From: a virus
Reading direction: 5' to 3' (one strand)
DNA: 22,673 nt
Virus record (IMG/VR): IMGVR_UViG_3300011253_000020
Location: 1 to 22,673 of that record
This document shows, in pieces, positions 10,249 through 22,673 of this stretch (positions are counted from its first letter, which is position 1; each line of letters starts with the position of its first letter). The position numbers were made by a program, and so were the translations under genes. Under the pieces are notes generated by a model, which ran no database searches, was not told the origin of the DNA, and was given only the letters and a program-made list of their open reading frames with translations.

Positions 10249-12511
10249 TACAAGAACACATAAAGTAGCAGTTAATTATAAAACACCAGAAGAATTATTA
10301 ACTACATCATGGTCTGCATCAGCATATGATGAAGAAGCGGCTGATACCTATGTTAAAGCTGTTGTATTAAATGCAAAACAAATACTAGATGATGAAAGAT
10401 TATTAGCTAGACAAAATGTAAAATATACAGATACAGTTGGAGAACATGTAGCTATGTTTGATAAATCTGTAGCAGAACCTATTGAAGCATTATTAAGTAC
10501 TGTTCCATTTGAAATGAGGTCTATTGTAGAAACTGAAATAAATGATGCGGTACGAACACGAAGAACTGATTTAGCAAATAAACATTTTACAAAACGAGTT
10601 GCATTTAATGATGCAACTGCTGAGTCAGCAAGAAAACAATTTGCTAATATAGCGCCAAGTTTAGCTCTAACTAATGCTGCTGCATTTGCAGAACAATTAG
10701 CTAAAATAACAAAAGAAATGACAAGACTATCACAAAAAAGTGATAATCCAAGTAGTGTTGCTTCTTTTTGGTTGCAAGAAGAATTACCTACATATTTGTT
10801 AATGGCAAAGACAGGTGAAAATTTAAAATCTTATATTTTACATGACAATAAAGATTCAAAAAGTATAACTAGAGCATCAAATAATATACAAAAAATAAGA
10901 ATGGGAATAAATAATCCAGAGCAAGTTATAACTTTAGATAACTTAGATGGAACAACAACAGATGTAACTTTAAAATCATTAGGGTTTGGTGATATAGATG
11001 GTTTAGATACAACTAAAATAGATAGTTTTTTAAATAATCATAAAACATATTTAGATGATATGTATACACAATCATCAACATCAGAAAAAAGTACTAATAT
11101 TTTACAAAGAGAAGCAGCATCAGGATATCCAATAGTAAAAACAAAAAAAGAATACAATGCTTTAGCAGATGCATTAAGTGATTTTAATTCACCAGAAAGT
11201 GAAATAACTATAGCTGAATTTGCATTAAGTTTTAACCCACCTAGAGAACACTATACTTCTGAATATTTTACTCAAGCACAACAAGGAGCTGTAGGGCAAA
11301 CACCGACTGCAACTACGGCTGATATAGCAATGTATTATGAATGGTTAGCAGCAAATCATGGTGTAATTCCAACTAATTTAGGCGGAGATTTAAAAAGCAG
11401 AATATCAAATATACAAACTGGAACAGCAAATAATGTAGCTATTGAAAATTTAGTTAATTCACCAGCATTTGCATTAATGCAAAGTTCAGTAGTAATGAAG
11501 GATGGCGTTGTTGATAGTAGAGGTATAATGCAATATTTAGATTTGCCAGAAAATGCAGAAGCAACAATAGAATCTTTAACAAAACATATTACGAATAATG
11601 CTGGTAATGTTAAAGCTGGAGTAGAGGCTTATATGTTAGATAGAAATTTAAAAGATGAAGATGGTTATTATTTTAAAAATAGAGAGTCTTTAAATAAAGC
11701 ATATAGCAAACAAAATAGTGGAAGCGATCCTTTTTTAACTGTGCTTGAAAGTGCAATCTCAAGTGAATTTGCTGATATGGCTGGAATGGATGATGTTATG
11801 GTGTCAAATAATTTTGCAAAAAGAATAACAGAACAAGTTTATTTGCATTATCGTATGGAAAATAATATTCCAAGTGCAAGTCAGTTAAAAGATAAAGCAA
11901 TAAAAATTGGTAAAAAAATGTTAGAAACAAATCATTTTGGTCAATCGAAATTGGTAATTAGCAATACTCAATTTTATACCAAAGGTACTGGTGGCGGTCC
12001 TTTTGGTATATTTGAAGAAGAATTAGGAGAAGATGCACAAATAGTACAATGGCCTATAGATCATTTTTTTTATGTTAGTCAAGAAAAACAAGAATATAAT
12101 AAACGATTTAAACAAAAATATGGCGAAGAAATTGTAAGTTCTAAAACTCAAGTTTATACAATGGTGCAAGATAAAATTAATCAAAGAATACAATCTTTAA
12201 ATCCTAAAAATAAAGGATTAAGAAAAGGTGATGAATTAATATTAGGAGAAACTGTTTTTTTTGAATGTATAAATAAACATAACATTACTAGACCAGAACA
12301 AGCTGTTTATCAATTAAAATATATAGACAAATCTAGTGGATTAGGACGAACAGTATATGATGATAACGACAATCCTATTACATATTCACAAAAAATGTTT
12401 GCAGATATGTATGAAATTGAAGAACCTTATTTTGGTTCAACAAATGAATTAAGTATTACTAAACAAACAAGCATTATAGATAATTTACGTGGTCCTAACA
12501 CAGGAAGATAA
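10214..12511 (+). CDS. Internal virion protein C (T7 gp15-like), main part
   Basis: About 765 residues, mostly helical, Lys/Asn/Thr-rich, without catalytic motifs that I recognise. Size (836 with the upstream fragment; T7 gp15 has 747) and position between gp14- and gp16-like genes identify it as the ejection protein that, with gp16, forms the trans-periplasmic channel. The ATG at 10214 has no ribosome site; TAA at 10208-10210 closes this frame upstream, so the shift must lie between 10211 and 10248. The short TYTDASGNTRTHKVAVNYKT region directly after the break is clean coding sequence. The gene is among the most A-rich of the window. Confidence 0.72.
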   Translation: MKIQTYTDASGNTRTHKVAVNYKTPEELLTTSWSASAYDEEAADTYVKAVVLNAKQILDDERLLARQNVKYTDTVGEHVAMFDKSVAEPIEALLSTVPFEMRSIVETEINDAVRTRRTDLANKHFTKRVAFNDATAESARKQFANIAPSLALTNAAAFAEQLAKITKEMTRLSQKSDNPSSVASFWLQEELPTYLLMAKTGENLKSYILHDNKDSKSITRASNNIQKIRMGINNPEQVITLDNLDGTTTDVTLKSLGFGDIDGLDTTKIDSFLNNHKTYLDDMYTQSSTSEKSTNILQREAASGYPIVKTKKEYNALADALSDFNSPESEITIAEFALSFNPPREHYTSEYFTQAQQGAVGQTPTATTADIAMYYEWLAANHGVIPTNLGGDLKSRISNIQTGTANNVAIENLVNSPAFALMQSSVVMKDGVVDSRGIMQYLDLPENAEATIESLTKHITNNAGNVKAGVEAYMLDRNLKDEDGYYFKNRESLNKAYSKQNSGSDPFLTVLESAISSEFADMAGMDDVMVSNNFAKRITEQVYLHYRMENNIPSASQLKDKAIKIGKKMLETNHFGQSKLVISNTQFYTKGTGGGPFGIFEEELGEDAQIVQWPIDHFFYVSQEKQEYNKRFKQKYGEEIVSSKTQVYTMVQDKINQRIQSLNPKNKGLRKGDELILGETVFFECINKHNITRPEQAVYQLKYIDKSSGLGRTVYDDNDNPITYSQKMFADMYEIEEPYFGSTNELSITKQTSIIDNLRGPNTGR

Positions 12512-12512
12512 T

Positions 12513-15500
12513 ATGAGTGAATTTTTTAAAGCACCTGTTTTTCAAACATCAAGAGAAAAAAGTTTACCATATAGACAAGATCCAACTTTTTTAAGTGCAG
12601 TTAGTGCTGCGTGGCAATTAGAACCACTTGGTCAAATAGCTATGGATCAAGGCACATATTTAGATAAACCATATGATCCGCCTACTGACATAGAAGAGCA
12701 AACATTAGATTATCAACAATACTATATGTCTGGTGCATTTGATGATATAAGAAATCAAGACCATTTAGATTATGTAAAAGAAAGAATAGATAAAAATAAT
12801 GACTTAAGGCGTATAAGAGATCAAGGTGGTTTTATGCCAGAATTAATTGCAGCGTTTGGAGATCCATTAACATACGCACCATTTCCAATGGTAAAAACAT
12901 TTTCAATGGCAAAACGATTTACACAAGGTGCTGGTATTTCTGCTGGTATTGTTGCAGCAGGAGAGCCTGTACGACACAGTTATGATCCAACAGCAACATT
13001 AGGAGAATCAGCAATATATGTTGGTGTAGGTTCTTTGCTTGGTGGATCTATGATTGCATTGTTTGGTAGACGTGGGCCTAAAAGTGTAGGCCATAATACA
13101 CCACCAGAAAAAAAAGCAGAAAAAATACTTGAATCAATCCATGACACAGAAACAAATGATTTTAGTAGCCCTTTATATAATTTAGATGATCCAAAAACTT
13201 ATGACATTGAAGGTATTGATAAAATTGTTACGAATGGAGAATATGATTTAGCAGAAGGTCCAGCTAATTTTTTAGGATTAGAAGCAGGAGAAGTTGTAAA
13301 AATAGTTCCTAAAGGAACTACATGGCGAGGTAAATTATTAGAAAGAGATTTAATTTTAATAGATGAAAATGCTATAAAAAGAAAATTTGATGATGGTAGT
13401 TACATGAATCCAGATGTACGTGGAGCAGGTAAATTACCAGAAATGGCAACTTTTGAAGATTATAAAAAATTTATATTAAAAAAAGCTCATATAAAAGATA
13501 AAGGTGGTGCGCCTAAAGGTATTGACGATATTGATTCAGAAAATTTACTTAACCTAGAAGTTAGAACCGAAATGGAAAAAGCTAAAATAGGTAGACAGAC
13601 TGCTGGTCGTGATGAAGGCAGGAGTTGGTTTGCTGAAAATGTAGATAGATGGATTACTGATATGGGTTCTTTATTAAATAATAAAATAGGTAATAAAAAA
13701 TTAAATACTAATGTTGCTGAATTTGCAATGAGAATGTTTGGTGATGTAGGTACAGTAGATAGAGCAGCTAAAGCAGGTTACTCAGTACCAATGTCTGCAT
13801 TGTTAAAAGCAACTGCAAATCATTTTAAAGGTATAGGTGGTTTTAATGAAGCCTTACATAAATCTTTTCAATTATATAGAAAAGGTTTATCTAAGGTTGG
13901 CGATCAAAAACTTGGATATAATCCAGGCTCTATTGGTATAAGAGCTGGAGATGTAAAAGATAAAATATTAGAAAAAGTTGGTATTATAGATGCAGATGAA
14001 GTAGCTGATGGCGGTATGTCATTTAAAGAATATAGCTCTTTTGTATACAAAGTTATAGTAGATGATGATTTATATAAAACTGCACCAAAAGAAATACAAG
14101 AGTTTGCAGATCAAGTTAGAAATATATATCAAGTAATTGGTGAAGAAGCTGAAAGACTTGGTATGTTTCAAACACAAGGCAGTATAAGAAAATTAAGAGA
14201 ACAATGGGAAGGTTTAACTGTTGATGCACAAAGACACTTAGATGAATTTACAGCAAAACATCCTAAAGATAAAGCTGGTATAGATGAATTTAAATTGCAA
14301 TTAAAAAGAGCAAAGGACCATGTTGCTGAATTAATGCAACAAGAAAAAAATATTACAGAAGGATTAGAAAAAGAATTTTCTCCGTTAATAAAAAATTATG
14401 TAAATCGTGTATACGATATAGATAAAATACAAGATGAAATATTAAATGAAATATGGGAAGAAGCTGCTGTAACCACACTACAAAAAAATCATATACCATT
14501 TGATGCTCCTGAAGGATTTACTGGCACAATGAATGTTGTAGGCAATTTTTCAGAATTAAAAAGAATAGCCGAAGGTGGTAATAAAGGTTATAAAGTAAAA
14601 ACAGGAAAATCAAGAAAAGTAAGAGATGGTAAACCAGTAGCATCATATGTAGATCATAATGCAAAAATACTTTACATAGATGTTAAATATATTAAAGAAG
14701 TTATGTGGCCAGAAAAAGCACATTTAAATCCTAAAGTAGATGGTGTAAAACCAATAAATAAAAAATTAATTAAAAATGAAAATGATTTAGTAGAATTTAT
14801 AATGGCACATGAAGTACATCATATATTGTATAGAAAAAATAAATCAGGTACAAAAACAAAAACAGACTATGAAAATTATATTAATGAAAAAGCTACCTTA
14901 ACTTTGTTAGCTAATAAAACAAGAGGAGCAATAGATCAAAGATACTTTACAATACCTAGACCAAATAGTTTTAGAGGTATTTTATATGAAAACTTTAAAG
15001 GTAATAAACATGATGATGTTGATATTTATATGACTAATTTAGAAGTAGATCAGTCTATAGGTCGTATAACACATGACTCAACACATTTAAATATGGATGG
15101 TGATTTAGCTTATACTAATGGTGTAGCAAGACAAAGTGCGTTTCAAAGCAGAGGCATTGATATAGAAGATAAAATCTTAGCACCGTATTTAATTACAGAT
15201 ATAAACTATTTAGTAAGAATGTATTCTGAACGTATGCATAAAAGAATTGAAATGACTAAAGAGTTTGGAGATCCAACAGCAGATGCAGCAATATGGAAAC
15301 AAAGACAAGATTTATTAAATGGTGAATACAAAGGTGATGGTAACTTAGAAGAAATAAATGCAATCTACAATAGATTAAATGATGCAAGAAATAAATATTA
15401 TGGTTTATTTAACACAGCCGATCCTGATAGTTTTTTTAAATCAAGACTACCAGCTACATTAAGAAACTGGGCTAGTACAGCTATGATGGGTAAAGTTGTA

Positions 15501-16772
15501 TTTTCATCTATAGTTGATTTTGCTCGTATACCTATGACACATGGATTATATAACACATATAGATATTTAAATAGTAAACATCCTTTTGCAGCAGACAACA
15601 AAGAATTTAATGAACAAATAGCTAACAACAAATGGTTAGGTGATGCTTATGATGTAGTAATGAATAATGCTTCTGCAAGATTTGTTGGTCAAACAGATTA
15701 TAGAGTTGGTAGAGGACATAATGCATTTAGTAGATTCTTTGATAGAAAAGTAGGACAGACATTTGAAGATATACAAGCACCTTTTTATCATATGAATTTA
15801 TTATCTGGTTGGACACAGATGATGAAAGAAATGACACAACATATTTCTACACATAGATTTTTAGAAGATTCACAAAAAGTAGCACAAGGCAAAGCTAGTA
15901 AATTTGAAATAGCTAGATTAGCTAGTTACGGTATAAGTCTGCAAGAAGCAAGAGCAATAGGTAAATTGCCAATGCATCGTACTAACAATGGCATGATTTA
16001 TACTAAAATGGATGAGTGGTATGCTACAAAAAACGGTGAGTATTATGGTAACAAATTAAGATACGCTACATTTGCAGATGTACAAAGAACTATTATTACC
16101 CCAAGTATAGCTGATAAACCTAATATGATGTTTGGTGTAATAAGAATACAAAACGAAAAATTAGCAGAAGCATTTGATAATGACGTATTTAGATTTTTAG
16201 GTGGGTTTGAAAAAACAGAATATGGCGGCCAGTTTAACAATGGATTTTTAGCTTTACCATTTCAATTTTATGCTTGGTCTTTTGCTGCAAACAGAAAACT
16301 TATGTTATCTGGACTATCAGGTAGAGAAATGAATCTTTCTGTAGGTATAATAGGGATGCTTTTATTTGCTGGACTTGGAGATTATCTAAAGAATCCATTA
16401 TATTATCAACATAAATCTACAGAAGAAAAAATATATAGAGCAATAGAAATGTCAGGTTTAATAGGATTGCCTGGAGATATGAACTTTGCATTAGAAACTA
16501 TATCAGAAGGTATGTTTGATACACCATTAGGTGTAAGACCAGCATTAGGTATTCCAGGCAGATTTGGAAAAGCTAATGCAGTTGACGGAGCAGGTGAATT
16601 TGTGGGTGCTGGTCCTTCACAAATATTAGAATTTATTAATGCACTAGGATCAGATGTTGGACTAGATGAAAAAGCACAAACGTATCGTAGGTTGATACCA
16701 TTTAACAATGTGATATATTTAGATAGTCTTTTTAAAAAAATAACCAGTGGTGTTACGGAGATTATAAGATGA
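12513..16772 (+). CDS. Internal virion protein D (T7 gp16-like) with HExxH metalloprotease-like motif
   Basis: 1419 residues from ATG 12513, chosen because AGGAAG at 12502-12507 sits five bases upstream; an in-frame GTG at 12489 lacks such a site. Size (T7 gp16 1318) and order identify the largest ejection protein. The N-terminus (FMPELIAAFGDPLTYAP) and hydrophobic runs near residues 140-186, plus a C-terminal region with FLALPFQFYAWSFAANRKLML and a hydrophobic helix near 1273-1292, are typical. Around residue 766 there is AHEVHHIL, an HExxH zinc motif, then NEKAT with Glu792, 22 residues later, as in gluzincin peptidases. No lytic transglycosylase motif like that at the T7 gp16 N-terminus is evident. 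Proteolytic activity is inferred from the motif only. Confidence 0.83.
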   Translation: MSEFFKAPVFQTSREKSLPYRQDPTFLSAVSAAWQLEPLGQIAMDQGTYLDKPYDPPTDIEEQTLDYQQYYMSGAFDDIRNQDHLDYVKERIDKNNDLRRIRDQGGFMPELIAAFGDPLTYAPFPMVKTFSMAKRFTQGAGISAGIVAAGEPVRHSYDPTATLGESAIYVGVGSLLGGSMIALFGRRGPKSVGHNTPPEKKAEKILESIHDTETNDFSSPLYNLDDPKTYDIEGIDKIVTNGEYDLAEGPANFLGLEAGEVVKIVPKGTTWRGKLLERDLILIDENAIKRKFDDGSYMNPDVRGAGKLPEMATFEDYKKFILKKAHIKDKGGAPKGIDDIDSENLLNLEVRTEMEKAKIGRQTAGRDEGRSWFAENVDRWITDMGSLLNNKIGNKKLNTNVAEFAMRMFGDVGTVDRAAKAGYSVPMSALLKATANHFKGIGGFNEALHKSFQLYRKGLSKVGDQKLGYNPGSIGIRAGDVKDKILEKVGIIDADEVADGGMSFKEYSSFVYKVIVDDDLYKTAPKEIQEFADQVRNIYQVIGEEAERLGMFQTQGSIRKLREQWEGLTVDAQRHLDEFTAKHPKDKAGIDEFKLQLKRAKDHVAELMQQEKNITEGLEKEFSPLIKNYVNRVYDIDKIQDEILNEIWEEAAVTTLQKNHIPFDAPEGFTGTMNVVGNFSELKRIAEGGNKGYKVKTGKSRKVRDGKPVASYVDHNAKILYIDVKYIKEVMWPEKAHLNPKVDGVKPINKKLIKNENDLVEFIMAHEVHHILYRKNKSGTKTKTDYENYINEKATLTLLANKTRGAIDQRYFTIPRPNSFRGILYENFKGNKHDDVDIYMTNLEVDQSIGRITHDSTHLNMDGDLAYTNGVARQSAFQSRGIDIEDKILAPYLITDINYLVRMYSERMHKRIEMTKEFGDPTADAAIWKQRQDLLNGEYKGDGNLEEINAIYNRLNDARNKYYGLFNTADPDSFFKSRLPATLRNWASTAMMGKVVFSSIVDFARIPMTHGLYNTYRYLNSKHPFAADNKEFNEQIANNKWLGDAYDVVMNNASARFVGQTDYRVGRGHNAFSRFFDRKVGQTFEDIQAPFYHMNLLSGWTQMMKEMTQHISTHRFLEDSQKVAQGKASKFEIARLASYGISLQEARAIGKLPMHRTNNGMIYTKMDEWYATKNGEYYGNKLRYATFADVQRTIITPSIADKPNMMFGVIRIQNEKLAEAFDNDVFRFLGGFEKTEYGGQFNNGFLALPFQFYAWSFAANRKLMLSGLSGREMNLSVGIIGMLLFAGLGDYLKNPLYYQHKSTEEKIYRAIEMSGLIGLPGDMNFALETISEGMFDTPLGVRPALGIPGRFGKANAVDGAGEFVGAGPSQILEFINALGSDVGLDEKAQTYRRLIPFNNVIYLDSLFKKITSGVTEIIR

Positions 16773-21493: not shown

Positions 21494-22015
21494 ATGCGCA
21501 GTCTAGCCTTTATAGTAATACTTGCTATAGTCCTGGCTTACATTGCTGAGTGTCAAGCAGCCGATAGCACATCCAATATACACTATAAAGATATGCCAGT
21601 AGCTCCACCATCTGTACCATCAATGGGTGCATCAGGTGCATACTCCGACATATGTGTAGTCGTAAGAGCAGGTGGTATATCAGGTGGGTTCTTTGGTATC
21701 TCTGCTGGTGTCCACGTGGAGGACAAAAACTGTCAAAGGATAAAACTTTCTAGGGCATTAGCACAGCTTGGTATGAAAATAAGTGCGACTGCTATGTTGT
21801 GTCAAGATCCCAGAGTATTTAAATCCATGATAGCGGCTGGAAGCCCTTGTCCTATCAATGGTAAGATAGGCGATGAAGCTATTCAAGAATACAGAAAACG
21901 TGGTATATTAGATGAGGACAATAATGTTATTGAAAATCATAAGGCTACTCCTGTTAAGTTTGATGCTGACAAATCTGTCGGCAGACGAAACTACTACGGA
22001 CAACCTATTAACTAA
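21494..22015 (+). CDS. Secreted protein of unknown function
   Basis: 173 residues, not recognised. Residues 1-22 (RSLAFIVILAIVLAYIAECQA) are a signal-peptide-like hydrophobic stretch with an Ala-x-Ala type end; a lipobox is not convincing because Glu precedes the Cys. A Pro-rich linker PVAPPSVPS follows, then a compact domain with SDICVVVRAGGISGGFFGISAG, CQRIKLSRALAQLGMKI, MLCQDPRVFKSM and GSPCPING; four Cys could form disulfides in the periplasm. Its codon use looks less A-rich than the ejection genes. Its 3' end overlaps the next gene out of frame by 92 bases. A lysis, spanin or envelope role is possible but unsupported. Confidence 0.65.
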   Translation: MRSLAFIVILAIVLAYIAECQAADSTSNIHYKDMPVAPPSVPSMGASGAYSDICVVVRAGGISGGFFGISAGVHVEDKNCQRIKLSRALAQLGMKISATAMLCQDPRVFKSMIAAGSPCPINGKIGDEAIQEYRKRGILDEDNNVIENHKATPVKFDADKSVGRRNYYGQPIN

Positions 22016-22673
22016 CAATACATTTAACGAGAATACAAATGGGTGGACTCTTTCAGATTCTAATGTTAAGCGTGATGCTAATTCTTATAGTGATGCAGGT
22101 AACAGCCCAACTGTAAGATTTAAAGGACAAACCTCTACCATATCACAACTGGTTAGCCTAACAGGTATAGAGCAAGGCAAAGAAATTAAATCGTATACCC
22201 TGAAATACAATGGTTATGGTTGTGGTAATACTCCTAATGGTTGGTGTACTGCTGGTAGCGATGACACCATAGTAACCAATATAACTTTTACGGATGGCAC
22301 AACTACAGAAATATCTAGCCATACCATTGCTGTACCTTATGAAGATGGTTGGACACATCACACCTTTACTAAGTCTATCAATGATACTTTTCTCACCGAT
22401 AATGTAGCAATTAACTTTGAACTATCAGGTGTAGATACTGGTAACTCAAGCTCATGGCTTGGTCCTATTACTGACAACTATGAATTAATGGTAACTTATC
22501 AGGACTATGTAGCTCCTGTAGTTATAGAGCCTGTAGTTATAGAGCCTGTTGTTGTAGAACCAGTCATTGAGGAGATAGTAGTTATAGAAGAAATAGTAGT
22601 AGAAGAATCTATGATTGGTGGCCTTGAACTATCTACTGAAATTACTTTAGACCTTATTCAAGATGTACCTACT
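21924..22673 (+). CDS. Partial secreted beta-domain protein with Val/Ile/Pro/Glu repeats
   Basis: An open frame with no stop to the window edge (250 residues visible). ATG 21924 is preferred because GAGGA at 21914-21918 lies five bases upstream; ATG 21912 is in frame and would add MRTI. The first 19 or so residues (LLKIIRLLLLSLMLTNLSA) form a signal peptide. Then NLLTNNTFNENTNGWTLSD starts a jelly-roll-like domain with two Cys in GYGCGNTPNGWC, ending near ELMVTYQD. It resembles the Asn-rich N-terminus of carbohydrate-binding modules in marine phage structural proteins. A short PVVIE repeat hinge follows. Function unknown; truncated by the window end. Confidence 0.7.
   Translation, partial: MLLKIIRLLLLSLMLTNLSADETTTDNLLTNNTFNENTNGWTLSDSNVKRDANSYSDAGNSPTVRFKGQTSTISQLVSLTGIEQGKEIKSYTLKYNGYGCGNTPNGWCTAGSDDTIVTNITFTDGTTTEISSHTIAVPYEDGWTHHTFTKSINDTFLTDNVAINFELSGVDTGNSSSWLGPITDNYELMVTYQDYVAPVVIEPVVIEPVVVEPVIEEIVVIEEIVVEESMIGGLELSTEITLDLIQDVPT
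22515..22574 (+). repeat. 15-base tandem repeats coding PVVIE units
   Basis: Two exact copies of CCTGTAGTTATAGAG (22515-22529, 22530-22544) are followed by degenerate copies coding PVVVE and PVIEE. They form an acidic, extended hinge in the secreted protein. Further Ile/Val/Glu-rich codons continue to about 22608. Confidence 0.85.

Follow-up and report, generated by a model that had tools for sequence, protein, structure and literature searches.

Among the closest described counterparts of the locus analyzed here are the overlapped two-component spanins of the P2 type. As set out in the part of PMC6139136 available to us, they share with it two exported envelope proteins, the export signal of the second being encoded out of frame in the 3′ end of the first gene, and their families switch between overlapped and separated orders (a 116-bp overlap in DFL12phi1 versus a 17-bp gap in EE36P1). 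The u-spanins of T1 (PMC6139136) and of roseophage cobaviruses (PMC6775973) carry, according to the available sections of these papers, an N-terminal lipobox and a C-terminal transmembrane (TM) segment, and resemble the second protein of our locus in being a single long protein with a proposed role in spanning the periplasm. Curli/type VIII secretion genes occur in SAR11 and other marine phages, and CsgGF has been suggested to act in lysis (PMC9599517 and PMC9004378, both available in part). These genes also encode exported envelope proteins, but by the descriptions in the available text their content and order differ from those at our locus. Family searches with both of our proteins reported no curli family, and we rejected the curli system, a different module, as the identity of the locus.

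The window (the whole 22,673-nt stretch of DNA analyzed, positions 1 to 22,673 of IMG/VR virus record IMGVR_UViG_3300011253_000020) is a T7-like podovirus region of a marine phage, encoding terminase, portal, capsid, tail tube proteins, an internal virion protein, and tail fibres, followed by two genes that we call g1 and g2. A 1427-aa protein (12489-16772) matches the PHROG family "internal virion protein with endolysin domain". Both g1 (21494-22015, + strand; 173 aa) and g2 (21924-22673, + strand, cut by the window end) encode candidate exported proteins. Their different-frame overlap, put at about 90 bases in a preliminary description of this DNA, spans 21924-22015 (+ strand), which is 92 nt, or 104 nt if g2 starts at 21912; from 21912 the g2 frame stays open through 22673 and past the window end. 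Because g2 lies in the +1 frame of g1, third codon positions of g1 are second positions of g2. As in overlapped two-component spanins, the second gene has its start inside the first, out of frame, and its end beyond it. We are highly confident that this overlap, and the three-gene arrangement described below, are real features.

Both proteins have N-termini that resemble type I signal peptides, MRSLAFIVILAIVLAYIAECQAA in g1 and MLLKIIRLLLLSLMLTNLSA in g2, so this part of the preliminary description was borne out by sequence reading. In g1 the signal-like segment comprises residues 1-23 (21494-21562, + strand), with an AxA-type end, and AlphaFold places a helix at residues 2-24. Downstream is a core of about residues 52-131, and four cysteines (54, 80, 103, and 119) are invariant across 55 family sequences. 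The profile of phrog_20531, for which no function is recorded, matches g1 with an E value of 3.4e-10 over residues 34-125 only. Some family members (L007, L099, and L124) have a hydrophobic C-terminal tail. The AlphaFold model of g1 consists of short helices at low confidence (pLDDT 63.6) and had no match in the PDB at E 0.001. Sequence searches of solved structures with g1 gave nothing useful, and NCBIfam gave no informative match for g1 or g2.

The complete g2 is 521 aa from the equivalent of the 21912 start, as read from a related contig (L040:5001-6566) whose g2 is 97% identical to that of the window and was used for modelling. Its signal-like N-terminus (21924-21983, + strand; AlphaFold helix at residues 2-20) is followed by a confidently modelled beta-sandwich at residues 26-200 (21987-22511, + strand), predicted disorder over about residues 210-494, and a short terminal helix. 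The window holds the start of the disordered part, an acidic linker rich in Pro, Glu, and Val (22512-22673, + strand), which continues past its end. By fold, the sandwich is carbohydrate-binding-module-like: it aligns with the sugar-binding Fbs1 domain 1umh (Z 16.3, rmsd 3.1, 163 aligned residues), CBM61 2xom (Z 14.2, rmsd 2.7, 137 aligned), and CBM16 2zew (Z 14.2, rmsd 3.0, 142 aligned). Pfam gave no CBM family match for g2. The N-terminus of g2 in the window contains no cysteine and hence no lipobox, the signal expected of an o-spanin. At two distant loci, L164 and L178, the g2 signal does match the lipobox pattern, and some g2 proteins, as at these loci, may be lipoproteins. The N-terminal domain of g2 differs in sequence among lineages. 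In the g2 proteins of L087, L134, and L139, runs of Cys-rich repeats of the NPLYxxxCPGYxxAY type lie between the N-terminal domain and the linker.

A Shine-Dalgarno (SD)-like site and a start codon for g2 are conserved inside g1, in the other frame. In the window, AGGA (21915-21918, + strand) lies 5 nt before the ATG at 21924. The alternative start (21912-21914, + strand) immediately follows an in-frame TAG and is the position used in relatives, and nothing SD-like precedes it in the window. The preference for 21924 in the preliminary description is thus backed by the sequence. Conservation had favored 21912 as the sole start, a choice that we dropped for the window in light of the SD evidence. 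Counting the window, an SD-like site precedes the first ATG in 11 of 29 distinct relatives and the second ATG, 12 nt on, in 13 of 29, the window being of the second type. Exactly one of the two starts has such a site in 24 of the 29, both have one in none, and neither has one in 5, against a background of SD-like sites at 431 of 8656 positions within g1 (5%). SD-like sites lie in g1 ahead of g2 in other overlapped lineages too (L096, L115, L101, and L010); none was found there in L001, L081, and L124.

Relatives of the window were fetched from IMG/VR, and within its clade the overlap is kept at every locus where both genes were found. Loci with a single gene were cut by a contig end (L037, L038, L050, L053, L067, and L068) or belong to distant phages that the g2 query did not match (L001, L004-L008, and L010). 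Overlap length is 92-107 nt in all 29 tabulated pairs, which represent 24 distinct overlap sequences and reach down to about 50% g1 identity. Both frames are open in all 24, and homologues with only one frame open, which the preliminary description had named as grounds for rejecting its reading, were not encountered within the clade. When g1 was re-drawn with synonymous codons, between 0.04 and 6.1% of the draws for each relative kept an open g2 frame, with a mean of 2.6%, and re-drawing g2 left the g1 frame open in a mean of 2.6% of draws (24 distinct pairs in each case).

Both frames of the overlap are kept under constraint. Third positions are under-variable there in each gene: for g1, 109 of 210 vary upstream versus 18 of 101 within the overlap (Fisher p 5e-9), and for g2, 100 of 149 vary downstream versus 21 of 98 within it (p 1e-12), the downstream figure being inflated in the 101-nt group by two members with diverged g2. 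Inside the overlap the third positions of neither frame are freer than those of the other (p 0.59). This comparison covers 18 of the 24 distinct pairs, in three groups of equal overlap length that were pooled with sites taken as independent; it leaves aside L061 of the 95-nt group (upstream part out of register), L042 and L043, whose group has no other members, and L033, L055, and L063, each of a length of its own.

The g1 family is widespread: it was matched in at least 600 IMG/VR stretches, at 26 loci of genome assemblies (most of them MAGs), and in 11 of 50,697 phage records over two queries, six of them SAR11 phages. None of the matched phage records is named as a cobavirus. A complete g2 was found at 83 of 111 non-redundant g1 loci. 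The other 28 are mainly at contig ends, and a few (such as L005, L111, L116, and L140) have room for a g2 that was missed by the start or adjacency rule. Among the 83, the genes overlap by at least 50 nt in 48, by 20-49 nt in 7, and by 0-19 nt in 11, and they are apart in 17. Distant homologues have the same gene order and no overlap. Long overlaps (40 nt or more) are found in several separate branches of the family and the genes are adjacent in others, so the overlap is unnecessary for function. On a tree of the g1 core, the long or short state changes approximately 8 or 9 times, a figure to be read with a tree of 84 rows and 92 columns that has many open forks and places L008 and L010, probably wrongly, on long branches inside the clade of the window. 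For comparison, overlaps of at least 40 nt between annotated same-strand neighbors number 2 of 57, 1 of 52, and 1 of 58 in three phages. Together, the overlap counts and the changes on the tree indicate that long overlap is frequent here, has undergone several gains or losses, and is nonessential. In the clade of the window, the GQP-type end of g1 reads over a DNLL motif of g2, and this motif is largely kept even where the genes are apart. Its retention outside overlaps suggests that g1 extended over g2 rather than the reverse.

Overall, g1 and g2 open a conserved set of three genes, the triad g1-g2-g3. The gene after g2, in isolates as well as in contigs, is g3, whose product, as read from sequence, has a membrane segment at its N-terminus, then a coiled coil, and in most cases an NPL motif at its C-terminus. 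Among the 96 loci that extend more than 3.2 kb downstream, 94 have a g3-like gene there, the exceptions being L079 and L180; a stricter test places g3 directly adjacent at 71 of 81 loci, and most of the remaining ten show it by eye. In the roseophages CRP-207 and CRP-810, g3-type genes (L008:3292-3873 and L181:7165-7587) are annotated as "lysozyme", a label that we consider unsupported, as the sequence consists of a membrane segment and a coiled coil. Our literature searches found no description of the triad, which is not proof that none exists, and the available part of a transcriptome paper (PMC12753301) gives no gene-level information on its genes. Also seen repeatedly close to the triad is a small protein in which membrane segments come after an EF-hand-like stretch (L008:3870-4226, L163:8628-9071, and L171:6752-7084), and an ORF resembling the iron-sulphur scaffold IscU by eye lies immediately 3′ of g2 in L138.

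Holin-like or endolysin genes are often found nearby. In relatives of the window, g3 follows g2 and is usually followed by a holin-like gene with three TM segments; such genes were assigned from membrane segments and position, and PHROGs classes these proteins as of unknown function. Among 48 loci with sequence on both sides, a peptidoglycan hydrolase lies within a few kb at 14, a three-TM holin-like gene at 25, either at 29, and neither at 19 (raw counts without a random-position baseline; the hydrolase queries excluded the CRP-810 "lysozyme", which is really g3, and a chitinase of L010). A shared strand was found for 66 of 67 matches to holin-like genes and for 39 of 45 matches to hydrolases. 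L178 carries lysozyme, holin-like gene, g1, and g2 end to end, and in MW202481 a lysozyme lies about 1 kb downstream of g2. In the autographivirid S28-C10, the triad sits between tail fibre and terminase, where T7 has its holin and spanins. The triad and the annotated hydrolase lie far apart in both HTVC202P and EXVC032P. The annotated lysozyme of MW202481 has a hydrophobic N-terminus, and its gene shares 98 nt, in a different frame, with the holin-like gene that precedes it (L150:37979-38076), a second instance of a signal encoded in an overlap.

A lipobox scan of six g1-bearing phage records (two of them 50-kb parts) returned only chance-looking ORFs except in CRP-207; gp18.7 was recovered from T7 as a control. 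HTVC019P, which lacks g1, has no credible lipobox ORF either, so a missing spanin is not diagnostic, and we dropped spanin absence as an argument for the role of the triad. The small lipoprotein ORF of CRP-207 matches the g1 profile (E 0.00085). By the lipobox list, a small separate lipoprotein ORF occurs near g1 at 14 of 137 loci. At roseophage-type loci, it lies just upstream of g1 (L152:48061-48276, − strand; similar in L010 and L181).

What the triad does can be approached from this conservation and setting. A conserved triad that is often near holin-like or endolysin genes makes a lysis role of g1 and g2 plausible, judged from gene content and order. Our preferred reading, held tentatively and put a little short of probable, is that the triad forms a complex that works on the envelope late in infection, at lysis or close to it. 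Specifically, g1 and g2 would be exported by Sec, with g1 a disulphide-stabilized periplasmic protein. The N-terminal sandwich of g2 may bind an envelope glycan (peptidoglycan, LPS, or a surface sugar), and its long acidic linker could bridge distance. The third protein would reside in the inner membrane with its coiled coil in the periplasm, and late in infection the three would jointly help to open up or detach the outer layers as the cell lyses, a task like that of spanins but performed without a lipoprotein anchor. The preliminary description had likened the locus to nested lysis genes. Its lysis idea gains from the position after the tail fibres, the holin-like or endolysin genes nearby, and the i-spanin-like g3. 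The likeness itself fares less well: g2 of the window lacks a lipobox, is not a small protein but about 520 aa long, and keeps its order without overlap in distant homologues, so the overlap is not in itself evidence for lysis. The description's remark that the window holds no other lysis candidate is formally correct for a dedicated cassette, but the window ends inside g2, and g3 and the holin-like gene follow in relatives.

The main rival is a surface or periplasmic exclusion or adhesion system, in which exported g2 would bind a surface or cell-wall sugar and block superinfection or aggregate infected cells. The carbohydrate-binding-like fold of g2 fits this equally well, its N-terminal domain varies strongly by lineage while g1 and g3 stay, as expected of a ligand-facing part, and curli export genes with such proposed roles are reported from some pelagiphages (PMC9599517, in the part available). 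Against it stand the co-located holin-like and endolysin genes, the late-gene position after the tail fibres, and the lack of any partner surface anchor among the genes found, and we consider it rather unlikely. That position, directly 3′ of the tail fibre genes in the window, together with the resemblance of g2 to tail-protein domains, would also suit virion or receptor-binding accessories that are produced along with the tail fibres and join the particle once lysis has occurred. Export signals on both proteins are unusual for virion parts, however, and the conserved partner g3 is by its sequence a membrane protein, leaving this account improbable.

The lack of a lipobox in g2 of the window argues against g1 and g2 being a classical overlapped spanin pair there. 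Such a pair, with g1 as i-spanin and g2 as o-spanin, would account for a second export signal that begins in the first gene and a second gene that runs on; overlapped spanins are moreover more numerous than any other class, at 228 of the 528 pairs in the available part of PMC6139136, and the g2 signals of L164 and L178 match the lipobox pattern. Yet the signal of g1 looks cleavable and a coiled coil is not evident in this protein, g2 runs to about 520 aa and has a glycan-binding-like fold, and the i-spanin-like topology belongs to the third of three genes, so we regard this identity as very improbable. A u-spanin is also a poor fit, since the full-length g2 of L040 has neither an N-terminal lipobox nor a C-terminal TM segment. 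The overlap could in principle be an annotation effect, with the true g2 start downstream of g1. The frame constraint, the conserved SD-like site and start, and the conserved overlap length make that exceedingly improbable, and such a start would delete the signal peptide.

Returning to the late envelope complex, its most specific form would be a widespread and as yet unnamed machine of three parts with which aquatic phages disrupt the outer envelope. It would be a functional analogue of spanins that relies on non-covalent sugar binding instead of a lipoprotein anchor, and its first two genes would have come to overlap more than once; in this full form we find it doubtful. The overlap itself looks like genome compaction of two weakly conserved parts, the g1 tail and the g2 signal peptide, because a weakly conserved part of g1 joins a signal peptide, an element that depends little on its exact sequence. 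Translational coupling of g1 and g2 is possible, and the overlap would not be the mechanism.

As such, the overlap is ordinary, and it is of interest as the entry to a widespread, uncharacterized phage module. It is a clear example of the signal peptide of one protein sharing DNA with the tail of another gene, in which the start codon visibly shifts between relatives. The absence of a credible lipoprotein spanin from lipobox scans of five of the six g1-bearing phage records, and of HTVC019P, bears on how marine phages break the outer membrane, and the triad provides defined genes for tests in cultured phages of SAR11 and other marine bacteria.
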